Made by a program: the position numbers and the translations under genes. This document shows, in pieces, positions 24,235 through 32,824 of a stretch of DNA of 59,970 nt. The DNA comes from Candidatus Oscillochloris fontis. Lineage in GTDB: Bacteria > Chloroflexota > Chloroflexia > Chloroflexales > Chloroflexaceae. The stretch is taken from NCBI RefSeq assembly GCF_004138135.1, contig NZ_RYFD01000028.1, forward strand, positions 1 through 59,970, given 5' to 3'. Positions within the stretch are counted from its first letter, which is position 1, and the number at the start of each line of letters is the position of its first letter. Under the pieces are notes generated by a model. It ran no database searches. It was given only the letters and a program-made list of their open reading frames with translations, and was not told the origin of the DNA.

Positions 24235-24500
24235 CTTGTACTGAACAGGTACTCCTCATCCCGAATCCCTCGAAGCTGTATAGAACATGACCTACGGCGG
24301 ATTGTTCAGCGCCATGCGCACTGAGCAGAGCGTCAGATCATCCGCACACCTCATGATCACACCTGCACGTTAGCAATACCGCTCGCTGAATCTCAATCTG
24401 AACCGTCAGATTGATGGCGTACCCAGTGCGGCGGTTATTTGTCCCATTCACAATCACTTGATTGCGAAGCAAGACCACCCTCAGCAGGAGGCTACCCGAT
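24235..24500 (+). other. long prkA leader without a recognisable gene
   Basis: About 265 bases lie between the promoter and the ATG. Small hairpins are visible (for example ATCTGA/TCAGAT near 24395-24412), but I recognise no known riboswitch and no ORF with a ribosome site. The region ends with AGCAGGAGGCT, the prkA ribosome-binding site (24484-24493). Confidence 0.4.
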
Positions 24501-27500
24501 ATGACTACGACCGGCTCATCGCTGATGCAGTTCCTCGGTGAATTACAGGATCGCAAGCAGTTTCGCCAACTCAATTGGCGCGGCACGTTTGTCGAATATC
24601 TCGATCTGGTTGCGCAAGACCCGAAGGTGACGCGCAACGCTTTCCAGCGAGTCTATGACATGATCATGGACTATGGAACCGAGGAGTTTATTGATGCTAA
24701 GAAGCGGCTGATCCGCTACAAGTTCTTTTCGGATGCGACCTTTGATGGCAATGATGCGATCTATGGTCTTGAGATCCCGCTGATGCGGTTGGTCAACTTC
24801 TTTAAGGGTGCGGCCAAGGGTTATGGCACCGAGAAGCGTGTGTTGTTGCTGCATGGCCCGGTTGGCTCTTCCAAGTCTACGATTGTGCGCCGCTTGAAGA
24901 AGGGCATGGAGCACTACTCGAAGACTGATGCCGGGGCTGTCTATACCTACGATTGGTATCTGGGGCCGATTGATGATCCCGCCAGCTTCGATCCGCTGAA
25001 GGTGCCCGAAGTTGAGTGGGAGAAGTGCCCCATGCACGAGGAGCCGCTGCACCTTGTGCCGATGGATCTGCGCGAGCAGATGCTGGAACGGATGAACGAT
25101 GGCCGCCCCAGCGAGGAGCATGTGCGCATCGTTGGCGACCTCTGCCCGGTCTGTCGCTACCACTTCCGCGAACTGATGCGCCGCTATGATGGCGATTGGA
25201 GCCGGGTGACGCAGCATATCCGCGTGCGTCGCCTGCTCTTTAGTGAGCAGGATCGGGTCGGGATCGGTACCTTCCAGCCCAAGGATGAGAAGAACCAGGA
25301 TAGTACCGAGCTGACTGGCGATATTAACTATCGCAAGATTGCGATCTATGGTTCGGATTCTGATCCGCGTGCCTTCAACTTTGATGGTGAGTTCAATATT
25401 GCTAACCGAGGTATCATCGAGTTTGTCGAGATGCTCAAGCTGGATGTGGCCTTCCTCTACGATCTACTGGGGGCGTCGCAGGAGCATCGCATCAAGTCGA
25501 AGAAGTTCGCCCAAACCGATATTGATGAGGTCATCGTTGGGCATAGTGTGGCGGGTGATACGCCCATTCCCTATCGCTACCGGGGTACGGTGCAGTGGGC
25601 GACGCTGGAGCGCATGCATGAGACCTTCGCCGCCTCCGCTGAGGGCCTCGAAGTGCTCGCCTACGACTTTGAGCGCCAGCAGGTGCAGTGGACACCGGTC
25701 AAGTCGGTCTTTCGCCACCGCTTCACGGGCGATATGTACACCTCCTCACAGAAGTGGGGGGTGATCGAGACGACGCCGAACCACTCGATCTATGATCGGA
25801 CAGGCCACACCTTCTACCCGGAAGATCGGCACGAGATGATGGCCTTACGCCGCTTTGATGCGGCCTTCGAGGCTGATGGCGATGCTGCGCTGATTGATGT
25901 GGTGGCCGAGATTGCGGGCTTTATCGGCAGTGAGGCGCGCACCTTCGCCGATGGCCAGCCGATCACGCGGCCATGCCAGCCCGGTTGGGCGCGGCTCGAT
26001 CTGCCACGCCACGCGACGGCGATTCGTAGCCAGTACCATCCGTTGGCTGATGCCGAGGCGTTGAAGGATCTCATCACGGTGCTAGTCTGGTATGCCACCG
26101 AGGGCCATGTGAATGGACAGAATGGCGGCATCGTGATTAGTCAGGCGGATCGTGAGGAGCTTGAGCGGGTGCGGGCAGCATACTCGCGGATCTCTACCGC
26201 TGATGGCTCGATTGATGCTGGGGCCAAGACCGATTCGGCGTGGCGGCTCTACTTGGGGTCGCAGGCGATTGCACGCTTGGCGGTGCATCATTGTGGTGAG
26301 GGCGCGGCCCAAAAGCGCCTGCCCGATTTCCTCTTTGGCCTGCCATCCGATCTGCTCCAGCATGCCTTCGATGAACTGATGCGTACCGATGGCTCGCGCA
26401 AGCTGAGTGCGCAGCTTACCCGCACGGCTTCGCCTACCTACCGCGAGCAGTTCTTTGAGTATAAGAGCATCTCGCCCATGCTGGCGGCGCAGGTGGGTAC
26501 GCTGGCGACGATGCTGGGCTATGACTATAGCGTCTATGCGGCTGAACGCCCGGAGCGCGAGCCGGCCTATCGCATCCGCTTTGTCTCTGGTGAGGGTAAG
26601 CGCGGCGGTCGCCATGATCGCTTCGAGGCGCGCCTGCATAGCCGTGCGGTTGATGATCTCTGGGTATATGACATCGAGTGCGTCGGCCTGCACAACTTTG
26701 TGTGTGGGGTCGGCAATGTGGTCTGCCACAACACCAACGAGCCTGAGTATCGCCGCCTCGAAAACAACGAATTCATGGAGGCACTCAAGGATCGCACTGT
26801 GCGCATTGACATCCCCTATGTCACGCGCTTGCGCGATGAGGTGCGGATCTATGAGCGCGACTTCAACAATCGTAAGGTGCGCGTGCATATCGCGCCACAT
26901 ACCCTTGAGGTCGCGGCGATGTGGGCAGTGCTGACGCGCCTGGAAGATCCGAAGAAGCCCAATCTGACCATGCTTCAGAAGTTGAAGCTCTATAACGGTA
27001 AGACCCTGCCGGGCTTCACCGAGGATAACATCAAGGAGTTGCGCAAGGAGGCCATGCGCGAGGGCATGGAGGGCATTTCGGCGCGCTATATTCAGGATAA
27101 GATCTCGAATGCGCTGGTGAGTAATCAGGAAGAGGGCTATATCAACCCCTTCATGGTGCTCAACGAGTTGGAGAGTGGCCTCAAGAACCACGCCCTGATT
27201 AGTAATGAGGAAGATCGCAAACGCTACCGCGATCTCTTGGCGACGGTGCGCGAGGAGTATACCGAGATCGTCAAGAACGAGGTGCAGCGCGCCATCTCCG
27301 CCGATGAGGAGGCGATTAAGCGTCTGGCGGGCAACTATATTGACAACATCAAAGCCTATACCCAGCGCGAGAAGGTGCGTAACCGCTATACCGGCCAGTA
27401 CGAGGAACCCGATGAGCGTCTGATGCGTAGTATTGAGGAGAAGATTGACATCCCCGAATCGCGCAAGGACGATTTCCGCCGCGAGATCATGAACTACATC

Positions 27501-27773
27501 GGCGCGTTGGCAGTTGAGGGCAAGACCTTCAACTATCGCACCAACGAGCGGCTGCACAAGGCACTCGAACTCAAGCTCTTTGAGGATCAGAAGGACAGTA
27601 TCAAGCTCACCTCGCTCGTCTCGCGGGTGATTGACCAGGACACCCAAGAGAAGATTGATGTGGTCAAGGCGCGCCTCATCCGCGATTTTGGCTACAATGA
27701 GCAGAGCGCCACCGATGTGCTCAACTATGTGGCCTCGATCTTTGCACGTGGTGATACGCGGGGGAGTTATTAG
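24501..27773 (+). CDS. prkA: PrkA serine protein kinase (AAA+) interrupted by an in-frame intein
   Basis: The 1090-residue reading consists of a PrkA of 694 residues with a 396-residue intein inside. N-terminal extein: Walker [10 protein letters not shown] (118-126), Cys/His-rich zinc-like segment around 175-235, and Walker B region [10 protein letters not shown] (about 302-311). The host protein is cut between EVIVGH (ending at His348) and TNEPEYRR, the sensor-1 strand that in uninterrupted PrkA reads ...HTNE. The C-terminal extein carries the kinase-like part ([17 protein letters not shown] onward). PrkA, YhbH (YeaH) and SpoVR (YcgB) form a conserved stress/starvation module, and both partners are downstream here. 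The ATG at 24501 has GGAGG eight bases upstream; a TTG at 24462 overlaps the leader. Confidence 0.93.
25545..26732 (+). other. PrkA intein with LAGLIDADG-type homing endonuclease
   Basis: Residues 349-744 of the precursor. Splicing blocks are all present: N-terminal Ser1 ([14 protein letters not shown]), block [10 protein letters not shown] with the Thr-x-x-His pair, block [16 protein letters not shown], and block G VVCHN ending His-Asn, followed by Thr as +1 residue. The central part has two degenerate dodecapeptide motifs, [16 protein letters not shown] (about 26067-26114) and [17 protein letters not shown] (about 26352-26402), the mark of LAGLIDADG endonucleases that spread inteins. It sits in the most conserved part of the AAA+ site, next to sensor 1, so unspliced PrkA should be inactive. 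All splice-site residues look functional. Confidence 0.93.
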
Positions 27774-27893: not shown

Positions 27894-29003
27894 ATGTCAA
27901 TGAAACGTGTTGACCGCGACCTGAACCGTTTTCGGCAGATTGTGCGCGGTAAAATCAAGAAGGATCTGCGTAAGTACATGTCGCACGGCGAGATGATCGG
28001 GCGGCAAGGCAAGCGCTTGGTCAGCATCCCCTTGCCTTCGATTGACCTACCCCAGTTCCGCTACGGGGCCAAACAGGGCGGCGGGGTGGGGCAGGGCGAG
28101 GGCGATGTGGGCGACCCGGTGGGTCAGGGTGATCCGCAGCCGGGCCAGGGTGAAGCCGGAGCGGAGCCGGGGCAGCATGTGCTCGAAGTAGATATGACGT
28201 TGGAGGAACTGGCGGCGATTCTGGGTGAGGAGCTGCAACTGCCCAACATCCAGCCCAAGGGGCGCAAGAACCTGATCAGCGAGAAGGATCGCTATGTCGG
28301 CATCCGCCGCACTGGCCCCAACTCGCTGCGCCACTTCAAGCGAACCTACCGCGAAGCCCTGCGCCGCCAGATCTCGTCGGGGGAGTATGATCAGGCCGAT
28401 CCGATTGTGGTGCCCATCCGTGAGGATATGCGCTATCGCTCCTGGAAGGAGACGCTGCAACCAGAGAGTAACGCGGTTATCATCTATATTATGGATGTCT
28501 CTGGCTCGATGGGCACCGAACAGAAGGAGTTGGTGCGCATCACCGCCTTCTGGATCGAGACCTGGTTGCGCTCGCAGTACAAGGAGATCGAGATCCGCTA
28601 TATTGTCCACGATGCGGCGGCTAAGGAGGTGGATCATGAGACCTTCTACCACATCCGCGAGGGTGGCGGCACCAAGATCTCCTCGGCCTATAAGCTCTGC
28701 AACCGCCTGATTGATGAGCGCTACCCGGCGAGTGAGTGGAATATCTACCCTTTCCACTTCTCCGATGGTGATAACTGGGGTGGCGGCGATACCCGCGAGT
28801 GTGTCGAGTTGCTCAGGAATGAGATCCTACCCAAAGTCAACCAGTTCTGCTATGGGCAGGTACGCTCGCTCTACGGCTCTGGCCGCTTTGCGCATGATCT
28901 TGAGGAGTTGTTGGGGGTTGATGAGCGCGTAGTGGTGAGTGAGATCGCCGAACGCGATGACATCTATGATACGATCAAAGATTTTTTAGGCAAGGGTAAG
29001 TGA
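27894..29003 (+). CDS. yhbH: YhbH/YeaH family protein (DUF444, VWA-like)
   Basis: A 369-residue DUF444 protein. [26 protein letters not shown] at the N-terminus, a Gly/Gln-rich linker (about 60-95), and a C-terminal von Willebrand A-like domain with the MIDAS motif DVSGSMG (about 200) and a later [13 protein letters not shown] segment. It works with PrkA and SpoVR in a stationary-phase/stress module whose biochemistry is incompletely known. A second ATG two codons in (MKRVDRD) is an alternative start. There is no usable ribosome site; a TACAAT hexamer six bases before the ATG suggests a leaderless message. The stop overlaps the start of the next gene (GTGA). Confidence 0.93.
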
Positions 29004-31156
29004 AGTCGCTCTTTCATACCGATCCACCATGGCGCATCCTGCCACCACTGTTCTTGGGTCTGTGTACCCTGGTGTTGACTCTGGTCTACTATGGTGGTGC
29101 CTACCGCACACAGGTGCGGGCCGAGGATCGCTTTCGTGACATCTTCGTTGGCTTTCAGTCTCTAGAGGGTGGCACCGAGCTACCCTATCGCTGGACGAAG
29201 GGCGAGGGTGTCGTCTGTTTGCCCGCTGCCGGAGCGACCCGCCCGCTCGGTATGTTGCGTCTGGATCTGGTAGGTAGCTCCTTCTCTGGCATTGCCGATC
29301 TGGAGTTGCGTATGGTCGGGGTGAGTCTGCCCCTCCAACTCGCCCCGGATCACCGGCGCTACCACCTACTCATCCCGCCCGACCCTAGCCCCGGCGCACT
29401 CTGCCTACACATGCTGAGTGAAGTCTTTGTGCCAGGGAATGGCCGGGTGGCCGGAGTTGGCTTGCGGGTGGCCGAGTTCCGCCTGCTTGTCCCCGCCTTC
29501 CCGCCATGGGGCCAACTCAGCGTGAATCTCTGGCTGAGTGTGGGCGGCTACTGGCTATTGCGGCGGCTGCGTGTAGCGTGGTGGTTGGGGTTAGGGGCGG
29601 TGCTGCTGCTGCTGCTCCTGATCGGGCTAGGAGTGATCCAAGGGCATCTGCGGGTGGCCCCCAACCTGCCCTTTTGGAGCGCCTTTGCCGCGCTGGCGCT
29701 GGCGGCCAGTATGGCCGCGCTGCTACTCTACCAGGGTGTCGCTCCGCGTTTGCGTATCTGGCAGCGCGAGCTAACCGGGGTGACGCTGATCAGCATGTTG
29801 CTGGGGGTGGGGTGGTACCAGTTGGCGCATCTCCCCGGCTATATCTGGCCCTTCCCGCTGATGGCGCGTGGTGGCACGATGCTCACATGGATGGCCATCT
29901 GGCCCACCCTGGGTGCCGCGCTCTTCATCGCGCTGGTGCTCTTCTGGCTGCGGCGTGAAACACCGCCCCATGCGGCGCTGGTGGTTGGGAGTAGCTGGCT
30001 GGCCGCCTTCAGCCTGCCAGTGATGCTCAAAGCCAGCGTGCGCGGCTGGGATACGCTCTTCCAGACCTTTGCGCTGCAAGAGGGCGACTATATCCGCGAT
30101 GTGCCGCTGGTTGCCAACGATCCGCTGGCCTTTGTGCGTGGCTACGTGGCGCAGATGCCCGATCTGGTGCTGCATAACAAGACCCACCCACCCGGTAATA
30201 CGCTCTTCCTCTGGGTGGTCGAGCGCATCTTCGGCGCGGGGCCAGAACCCGCCACCTGGGTGGTGGTTGCCATTGCGGCGCTGGCGGTGTGGCCCACCTA
30301 CCTGCTGGCGCGGCGCATCAGCGGCTGGCGGGCGGGTATCCTGGCGGCGGCGATCACCACCCTGTTGCCCGCCGCGATGGCCTACAATGTGGTTTCGATG
30401 GATGCACTATTGGCAACCCTCTTGGCCTGGGCGATCTACGCGCTCTATGTGGCCTTCGCCCCGATGGGTGACAATGCCGAACGTGCCGCACTGGTTGCGG
30501 GGCTACTCCTCGCACTGGGGCTTTTCTTCAGCTTTACCACGCTAATGGTGGCGTTGGTTGCGGCGGCGCTGCTGCTCTGGCAACTCTGGCAGCGGCCCTA
30601 CGACCCGGCGGCGCTGCGCCGCTGGGTCGGGTTGGCAGTGCGGGTGCTGGCCATGATGCTGCTGGTACACCTGGGGCTGTGGATCTTCACTGGCTATAAC
30701 AGCCTGGATGCCTTCGTTATGGGCACGGCCAACAATACCATTGATGTCAGTAACCGCATCTCGCCGCTAGGACTCTCCAGCTACCTCTTCTTCTTGGCGG
30801 TCAACGCGGTATCTTATGGCTGGTTCCTGGGGCCATGGCCACTCTATCGGCTGCTGAACAGTGCCAACCAAGCGGTTGGGCGGCTTGGCAACCCGGCCAC
30901 AGCCGCGCAGCAGAACAATGCGCTCGGCCTGGGGATGCTGCTGCTTATTGGTGGGATGCTTGGGTCGGGACTCTTCTTCCGCGAGATTGAACGTATCTGG
31001 CTCTTTAGCCATATTCTCATCGCCACAACCCTAGCTAGTGGTATCATGGATGAAGAACGAGGGCGACGCACCCAGATTGTCGTGGCTGGGTTGCTGCTAA
31101 CCACCCTCTTCGTCCACAGTCTCATCTTCCGCAGCATCCTGCGTATCTCGTGGTGA
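29000..31156 (+). CDS. GT-C-fold membrane glycosyltransferase-like protein
   Basis: A 718-residue protein with an N-terminal membrane segment, an extracytoplasmic domain of about 130 residues with a [14 protein letters not shown] stretch, and then about twelve hydrophobic segments. A loop reading [13 protein letters not shown] after a TM segment resembles the acceptor/donor loop of GT39/GT83-type enzymes that use polyprenyl-linked sugars. It shares the N-terminal plan with the protein at 8999-10990. The GTG start overlaps the yhbH stop by four bases, so it is cotranslated with the stress module. It originally stood only about 15 bases from spoVR before a MITE inserted there. Its role in that module is unknown. 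Confidence 0.75.
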
Positions 31157-31159
31157 GAG

Positions 31160-31309
31160 GTAACTGTTCACCGTTCTCCTAGCATTCAGGTTTTGACGCA
31201 AAGACGCCAAGGCGCAAAGCCTTCACGAGAGAGTCCAATCACAATCTTTGCGTCTTTGCGCCTTGGCGTCAACACGAGAATTCTGTTTACCCCAAGTGTG
31301 AATAGTTAT
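31160..31309. mobile_element. MITE copy with 8-bp target duplication between the membrane gene and spoVR
   Basis: The 150-bp element starts GTAACTGTTCACCG and ends AAGTGTGAATAGTTAT. GGTGAGAG stands on both sides (31152-31159 and 31310-31317); the left copy includes the TGA stop of the upstream gene and the right copy is next to the spoVR ribosome site. The core is GACGCAAAGACGCCAAGG and its inverse. Confidence 0.88.
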
Positions 31310-31327
31310 GGTGAGAGAGGGGGTTCT

Positions 31328-32824
31328 ATGCGCAACACCCGCCTACCTGCCAACCTAGAGGCCGCCCGCGAAGAGATCGAGACCCATGCGCGTGCCTATG
31401 GCCTCGATTTCTTCCCCATCATCTATGAAGTGTTGGATTACCGCACGCTCTATGAGACGGCGGCGATGGGCGGTTTTCCGACGCGCTACCCGCATTGGCG
31501 CTTCGGCATGGATTTTGACCAGTTGATGAAGGGCCATATCTGGCAGGGTTCAACAATCTATGAGATGGTGATCAATACCAACCCCTCCTACGCCTATTTG
31601 CTGGAGGGCAACGAAGATGTGACCCAGAAGATGGTCATGGCGCATGTGACCGGGCATGTGGACTTCTTCAAACACAATATGTGGTTTGCCCACACCAACC
31701 GCAAGATGCTTGATGCCATGGCCAACCATGCCACACGCATCCAGCGCATCATTGATCGGATTGGCTATGATGTAGTTGAGGAGTTCATTGACACCTGCCT
31801 CTCGCTCGAAAACCTGATTGACTACCACTCGCCCTACATCAAGCGCCCCGACTCCCACACCCCCCAGCCGCTGGTGGGCGAAGAGGAGCCACAGGTGGCG
31901 CAGGGCTTGCGGGTAGAGCGCGACTATATGCGCGATTACATCAATCCGCCGGAGTATCTGGCCGCGCAGCGCCAGAAGATCGAGGAAGAACGGGCCAAAC
32001 AGCGCCGCTTCCCCGAACATCCGCAGCGCGATATTCTGCTCTTCCTCTTGAATTATGCGCCGCTGGAGCGTTGGCAACATACGGTGCTAGAGATTGTGCG
32101 CGATGAAGCCTACTACTTTGCGCCCCAGGGCATGACCAAGATTCTGAATGAGGGTTGGGCCAGTTACTGGCACAGCATGATCATGACCCGCAAGGTGGCG
32201 ACAGCGGCGGAGATCGTCGCGTTTGCTGATCTGCATAGTGGGGTGGTGGCGACGGGCGGCGGGCGGCTGAATCCGTACAAGCTGGGGCTGGAACTGCTGC
32301 GCGATGTGGAAGATCGCTGGAACCGGGGCCGCTTCGGCAAGGAGTACGAGGAGTGTGACGACATCGCCGCCAAGCGTACCTGGGATCGCCAGTTGGGCCT
32401 GGGGCGACAGAAGATCTTTGAGATCCGCAAGCTGTATAATGATGTCACCTTTATTGATGAGTTCCTCACCCCGGAGTTTGTGATCGAGAACAAACTCTTC
32501 TCCTTCCGCTACAACCGCGACACCGACCTCTACGAGATCGCCTCGCGTGAGTTTCAGGAGATCAAGCAGAAGTTGCTCTTCCGGCTCACCAACTTTGGCC
32601 AACCCTTCATTGCAATTGAAGATGGTAATTATAATAATCGCGGCGAAATCTACCTACGCCATCGCCACGAAGGCGTGGATCTGAAGATGGACTACGCCCG
32701 CGACACGATTCGCAATCTGCATCACATCTGGTCACGCCCGATACACTTGGAGACCCGTATTGATGACAAGAAGCGCCTGCTCTCATTTGATGGCAGTGAC
32801 TTCACTGAACGGCGGATAGATTAG
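31328..32824 (+). CDS. spoVR: SpoVR family protein (YcgB-like)
   Basis: A 498-residue SpoVR protein of normal length. Conserved stretches include [46 protein letters not shown]-type (here [18 protein letters not shown]), and [15 protein letters not shown], a histidine-rich set shared by the family. SpoVR is the third component of the PrkA-YhbH-SpoVR module; its activity is not settled. The ATG at 31328 with the purine-rich GAGAGAGGGGG in front is the right start; an in-frame extension to 31193 reads through the MITE and is spurious. The operon link to yhbH and the membrane gene is now interrupted by that insertion. Confidence 0.94.

Follow-up and report, generated by a model that had tools for sequence, protein, structure and literature searches.

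The prkA gene of Candidatus Oscillochloris fontis carries a long in-frame insert. It lies on contig NZ_RYFD01000028.1 (assembly GCF_004138135.1); the window is the whole stretch of 59,970 nt that was analysed, and all coordinates are those of this stretch, forward strand. A single open frame of 1103 codons occupies 24462-27773, with ATG 24501 as the likely start of a 1090-aa product (Table 1). Its two flanks are PrkA, matching PF08298 and PF06798 with E about 1e-89, and both also match the solved PrkA 9xip, whose sequence GHTNEPEYR is continuous across the insertion point. The insert sits between ...DEVIVGH and TNEPEYRR..., and 1090-396 leaves 694 aa. Searched with the whole precursor, the Ca. 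O. fontis genome showed a single prkA. When the insert was shuffled 2000 times by mononucleotide, every shuffle had at least one in-frame stop. Downstream the module continues with yhbH and spoVR; a PMT_2-type membrane glycosyltransferase-like gene (29000-31156) lies between them.

An earlier note on this DNA had read a 396-residue in-frame intein at 25545-26732, its splicing blocks falling between the His and Thr of HTNE, and had stated that its removal restores a 694-residue PrkA. The placement is exact to the base, and the length agrees, with PF08298 and PF06798 on the flanks. The note had also put the insertion at sensor-1. HTNE lies about 38 residues downstream of ANRGIIEF, which we take to be Walker B, and from this order of motifs a sensor-1 position is plausible; in a profile search bearing on this placement, matches beyond 9xip were weak, and the AAA+ ones lay around the P-loop.

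Table 1. Features of the prkA locus in the window
Feature	Position	Strand	Basis or remark
prkA precursor gene	24501..27773	+	ATG start; 1090 aa, predicted 694 aa after splicing
PrkA N-extein, 348 aa, AAA+ domain to ...VIVGH	24501..25544	+	PF08298/9xip sequence match
Intein, 396 aa (product residues 349-744)	25545..26732	+	blocks, junctions, predicted fold
Ser1, predicted N-terminal splicing nucleophile	25545..25547	+	Ser in 37/37 complete copies
Block B TTPNH, residues 76-80	25770..25784	+	identical in 37/37 complete copies
LAGLIDADG-like motif 1, residues 176-190	26070..26114	+	acidic Glu186 at 26100-26102
LAGLIDADG-like motif 2, residues 268-286	26346..26402	+	Asp282 at 26388-26390
C-terminal splicing blocks including F, residues 373-396	26661..26732	+	end is His395-Asn396
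Thr+1, C-extein residue 1, expected second nucleophile	26733..26735	+	sequence, junction comparison
PrkA C-extein: remaining AAA+ domain and PrkA C-terminal domain	26733..27773	+	PF06798/9xip sequence match
YhbH/DUF444 gene, next gene of the module, without interruption	27894..29003	+	neighbour-gene annotation
spoVR, uninterrupted in Ca. O. fontis	31193..32824	+	neighbour-gene annotation

Blocks, profiles and predicted fold of the insert

The Ca. O. fontis insert begins with Ser, contains TTPNH, ends in CHN and is followed by Thr, which are the blocks of a class 1 intein. We compared 37 complete copies, a set that (like the trees below) leaves out one copy cut at a contig end (L091) and one Thermus intein with a broken frame (L120, genome G462); Ser1, TTPNH and the terminal Asn are present in every copy, and the penultimate His in 32. 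Class 3 inteins have no nucleophile at position 1 and carry a WCT motif; a class 3 assignment was ruled out by Ser1 in all 37 copies.

Profile scores depended on how the insert was presented. LAGLIDADG_3 gave 25.0 bits with the insert alone and 21.3 with the whole ORF (cut-off 22.5), and TIGR01443 (intein_Cterm) scored above its cut-off of 15.6 both ways (18.5 on the insert, 15.9 on the whole ORF). Two further profiles stayed below their cut-offs, Intein_splicing (PF14890) with 22.6 against 35.8 and TIGR01445 with 20.1 against 24.5. The acidic LAGLIDADG residues Glu186 and Asp282 are both present in Ca. O. fontis, and Asp282 in 25 of 30 compared rows; from their position in the motifs, these would be the catalytic residues.

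A structure model of the intein, built from 30 aligned sequences (Ca. O. fontis and 29 relatives), was predicted with a mean pLDDT of 90.6 and a pTM of 0.91. Its top Foldseek match was PI-PkoII (2cw7; E 1.0e-19), followed by TliVMA (7qss, 7qsu), PhoVMA (7qst), PI-PfuI (1dq3) and PI-SceI (1vde); VIA aligned the model to 2cw7 over 355 residues with Z 29.5 and rmsd 4.3. Mini-inteins among the matches listed align to the splicing part over 118-164 residues (VIA Z 13.4-18.6), and matches to the nuclease fold include I-DmoI, I-Tsp061I and full inteins. The prediction thus shows a Hint fold and a LAGLIDADG nuclease fold within the insert, and the homing-endonuclease motifs claimed by the earlier note are borne out by two LAGLIDADG-like motifs, by Glu186 and Asp282 and by this predicted fold. 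The solved proteins just named are archaeal or yeast class 1 LAGLIDADG inteins; the PrkA intein is predicted to share with them a Hint fold with an inserted LAGLIDADG nuclease, in alignments spanning residues 1-396. Unlike them, it is bacterial, has another host and pairs Ser1 with Thr+1, and its identity to them is 14-20% by VIA and 10-15% by Foldseek.

We also modelled the whole precursor. The intein was mostly well predicted there, and much of the AAA+ core near the site had pLDDT <40; this model came from a shallow alignment and had no intein-free control, and is therefore not evidence of an inactive precursor.

Distribution at the PrkA site

In 61 relatives, Ca. O. fontis included, we found the insert in 13 and an uninterrupted site in 41, with 7 unscorable; the insert is thus absent from PrkA in most relatives, where the earlier note had raised the contrary case of an insertion common to all. 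On a host-protein tree of 53 of the 61 there are at least nine changes of intein state. That the insert might be an ordinary lineage-specific domain of PrkA would suit its being in frame and maintained, but the intein blocks, the predicted Hint/LAGLIDADG fold and its precise absence in close relatives refute this reading, to which we give next to no probability. A Chloroflexota sample of 400 genomes yielded nine matches to the intein profile, seven of them in PrkA. The two weaker ones (L068, L069) have other hosts, namely an anaerobic ribonucleotide reductase and a frame that contains a DNA-methylase domain, and we rejected both as alleles of the PrkA intein.

A scan of public genomes, with patterns biased towards similar copies, gave 30 loci, which overlap the genomes of the 61-relative set so that the counts are not additive. 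These orthologues share one insertion site, a point that the earlier note had left to such a comparison: the N-side junction is identical in 30/30 loci and the C-side junction in 29/30, L091 ending with its contig. Named hosts are Oscillochloris-labelled lake MAGs, Herpetosiphon geysericola, H. llansteffanensis, Thermus caliditerrae and T. tenuipuniceus; other MAGs are labelled Herpetosiphonaceae, Chloroflexaceae, Planctomycetota, Acidobacteria (Acidobacteriota), Myxococcota, Ardenticatenales, Anaerolineales, Latescibacterota, Proteobacteria and Gracilibacteria. Such labels are fallible: the Gracilibacteria copy (L075) shares its reading frame with a contig of G021, a genome of the Ca. O. fontis family. 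This identity of site, together with patchy presence over several phyla, resembles a travelling selfish element.

Two groups were sampled more broadly. The 27 Thermus genomes comprise nine with the intein in an open frame, one with a broken copy, 13 with an uninterrupted gene and four with no full PrkA. The frame of L120 is broken in both the intein and the C-extein, through decay or assembly error. In 119 Planctomycetota genomes there was a PrkA-type match in 69 (some partial) and an insert in the seed genome alone, and the intein is therefore rare there. Six intein-free relatives (L011, L019, L020, L054, L055, L056) have GHTNSPE in place of GHTNEPE after the site; the pattern used in the flank comparison left out these six uninterrupted rows, and the 49 rows taken as empty in it include L120, L034 and L122 (the last two broken genes).

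Movement, selection and decay of the intein

Distances of the intein and of its host protein disagree. Identity of the intein to the Ca. O. fontis copy is 70% for Thermus and 64-65% for Herpetosiphon, a member of the same order; the corresponding PrkA values are 64% and 78%. Over 31 taxa (L099, L100, L079, L077, L085 and L087 left out), the intein:extein distance ratio within groups is 2.36 for the Ca. O. fontis group (15 pairs), 2.32 for Planctomycetota (10 pairs) and 4.26 for Thermus (36 pairs), and 2.24 to 9.3 in four smaller groups with 1 to 3 pairs each. Between groups it is 0.97 for the Ca. O. fontis group with Thermus (54 pairs), 1.01 for the same group with Planctomycetota (30 pairs) and 0.98 for Planctomycetota with Thermus (45 pairs); all other between-group ratios lie between 0.92 and 1.99, the highest being that of Herpetosiphon with the Ca. 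O. fontis group. In addition, Thermus holds two inteins, with 58% and 56% identity to the Ca. O. fontis copy, that are distinct from its set at 69-71%.

Synonymous distances were compared in 31 within-group pairs, which share members. In 19 pairs the bootstrap interval of intein dS lies clear of that of extein dS (intein higher in 17, lower in 2), and the two are not distinguishable in the other 12. The dS of the Ca. O. fontis intein is not clearly different from that of its extein in any of the three comparisons with intein-bearing congeners (G001, G002, G004), and this copy may therefore have been inherited vertically inside its genus.

Could the whole distribution then go back to an ancient intein, inherited vertically, lost very many times and never transferred between phyla? 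The dS agreement within the Ca. O. fontis genus is in keeping with this, as are the between-group ratios that exceed 1 and the tests made on the intein tree for one host clade at a time (L099 and L100 left out), none of which rejected vertical grouping (p 0.573, 0.124, 0.278, 0.124). Because these single-clade tests are non-significant, the case for transfer rests on the distances and dS: ratios near 1 among Chloroflexota, Thermus and Planctomycetota as against 2.24-9.3 within groups, dS discordance in Herpetosiphon and Thermus, and the two intein lineages of Thermus (56-58% and 69-71%). Whole-tree AU tests, run under a simpler model (LG+G4+F), reject congruence in both directions, the host data on the intein tree and the reverse (p 4.4e-8 and 9.3e-5). 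We consider purely vertical descent very unlikely.

Direct traces of a transfer event were sought in several places. In Herpetosiphon, an intein-free genome (G038) and an intein-bearing one (G050) are 91-100% identical in 90-base steps on either side of the site, with no dip in DNA identity typical of co-conversion beside it. Viral contigs gave three pattern matches, none of them a relative, and plasmid and phage records gave no match to the intein at E 1e-5; no transfer vehicle was therefore found in these collections.

Both parts of the intein are under purifying selection. The dN/dS of the splicing part is 0.02-0.18 in 18 pairs, and that of the nuclease part is 0.006-0.20 in 17 of these; the exception is a Myxococcota pair with Glu in place of Asp282, where the nuclease part reaches 0.337 and the splicing part 0.069. 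Decayed copies also occur. In two copies from Herpetosiphonaceae MAGs (338 and 302 residues) parts of the nuclease are missing, among them the second acidic residue, and the splicing ends are retained; the 338-residue copy has Lys-Asn at its C terminus. Five of the 37 complete copies have another residue in place of the penultimate His (Lys in three and Ser in two; L087, L088, L090, L094, L099), which could point to a slowed or changed cyclisation of Asn. The third-last residue, Cys394, is kept in 31/37 and replaced in 6/37, and four of the five copies without the penultimate His also lack this preceding Cys. Another cysteine, Cys250 (26292-26294), is present in all 30 aligned copies, including those with a decayed nuclease.

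One might suppose that splicing has been lost in Ca. O. fontis, leaving prkA a null allele. A prkA deletion mutant of one species grows normally when unstressed, according to the available part of PMC13001217, so that loss of prkA could be tolerated, and the genome search found no second prkA. Yet Ser1, TTPNH, His395, Asn396 and Thr+1 are all kept in Ca. O. fontis, both intein parts are under purifying selection and the exteins are conserved, and we regard a null allele as extremely unlikely.

From the discordant distances, the patchy occupation of the site, the selection on the nuclease and the decayed copies we conclude that this is a horizontally moving family of homing inteins, and that the Ca. 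O. fontis insert is very probably a bifunctional class 1 member of it residing in PrkA. We propose the following course. After translation, the Hint domain would form an ester at Ser1, the chain would move to Thr+1, and cyclisation of Asn396 would release spliced 694-residue PrkA from the intein. The freed endonuclease would cut intein-free prkA at the DNA coding DEVI.GH/TNEPEYR (slash, insertion point), and repair of the cut allele would copy the intein in. The family would cycle from empty to occupied with an active nuclease and on to occupied with a decayed nuclease, and could pass species and phylum borders via its conserved target, because that target encodes nearly invariant residues. 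Such a homing cycle would be expected to leave just the kinds of allele seen at this site: empty, occupied and nuclease-decayed.

Host protein, the SpoVR intein and conditional splicing

The earlier note had called PrkA a stress kinase and had suggested that its splicing could act as a switch on the PrkA-YhbH-SpoVR module. The kinase label is questionable: in the available part of PMC13001217, one PrkA is described as an AAA+ ATPase for which autophosphorylation could not be detected and the kinase and protease activities were negligible. The same source does describe PrkA as acting under stress.

SpoVR has an intein of its own, like that of PrkA in belonging to the same gene module and in being patchy in Chloroflexales and other phyla. 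It differs in having Cys1 and Ser+1 and another site (EGWA/C...HN/SYWHS in the copies read, e.g. L123, L126, L133, L125), and its identity to the PrkA intein is weak and local, 17-23% in the longer matches and mostly in the nuclease part. InBase lists a SpoVR intein under the name 'Cau SpoVR'. An intein-like insertion is present in SpoVR of 28 of the 57 relatives with that gene (a few from cut frames), as well as in other phyla; for G014, G020, G022, G052 and G532 the state was deduced from frames that are cut or split. Ca. O. fontis itself has a second intein, in a dCTP deaminase-like gene (L060, 1165-2403; contig C56 near 190999), with an HNH-like stretch, judged by eye, and not LAGLIDADG.

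If splicing were conditional, the insert could switch PrkA in response to stress (redox or temperature) and, jointly with the SpoVR intein, control the whole module. The insertion site in the ATPase core and the activity of PrkA under stress (PMC13001217, same part) fit this, as do Cys250 in 30/30 aligned copies and Cys394 in 31/37. SpoVR insertions accompany the PrkA intein in eight of 20 genomes, with two more ambiguous, and in Planctomycetota they are present in three of the five examined PrkA-intein genomes vs four of 67 other sampled SpoVR-bearing genomes. One of those four was inferred over two contigs, L085 and L087 fall outside the five and kinship is uncontrolled, so that this co-occurrence is only a lead. 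Against a switch, SpoVR insertions in Chloroflexales are found in 5/13 genomes with the PrkA intein and in 22/40 without it (Fisher p 0.35), and independent pairs within that order gave no association of the two inteins either; Cys394 is replaced in 6/37 copies; and a selfish element would itself produce such a patchy pattern of gain and loss. The module switch of the earlier note thus goes unsupported, given a patchy, mobile-like distribution and no co-occurrence with SpoVR inteins in Chloroflexales. Present results do not favour conditional splicing over a selfish element; as an account of the insert, a stress switch seems to us very improbable. That the PrkA and the independent SpoVR inteins have their splicing tuned by cell state, for example via Cys250 or Cys394, we hold to be quite improbable; if true, what began as a mobile element would, in several phyla, now gate a dispensable stress module after translation.

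A homing intein remains our preferred reading, and it has a parallel among mycobacteriophages. Inteins of their terminase P-loop ATPases also lie in an ATPase domain near a conserved motif, are sporadic and have been transferred horizontally; they occupy Walker A, Walker B, the C motif and other places, whereas the PrkA intein lies downstream of the presumed Walker B (PMC5050341, available part, for the terminases). In the titles and abstract openings of the open-licence papers listed, we found no report of an intein in microbial PrkA, which agrees with the earlier note's remark that PrkA is not a well-known intein host, and no paper joining intein and SpoVR. In the genome paper of T. aquaticus (PMC4605624) both prkA and spoVR are mentioned, and the accessible part of its text does not contain the word 'intein'.

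Most discussion of inteins concerns proteins of replication and nucleotide metabolism. As far as the open-licence literature was searched, the PrkA intein adds a new host and a new family of alleles to a mobile element of well-known kind. The new host, a bacterial stress protein of the AAA+ type, can be dispensed with in the absence of stress in one species (PMC13001217, available part). Its empty, occupied and nuclease-decayed alleles form a compact natural series at one site, cultured Thermus and Herpetosiphon included, which allows a direct test of the homing cycle.
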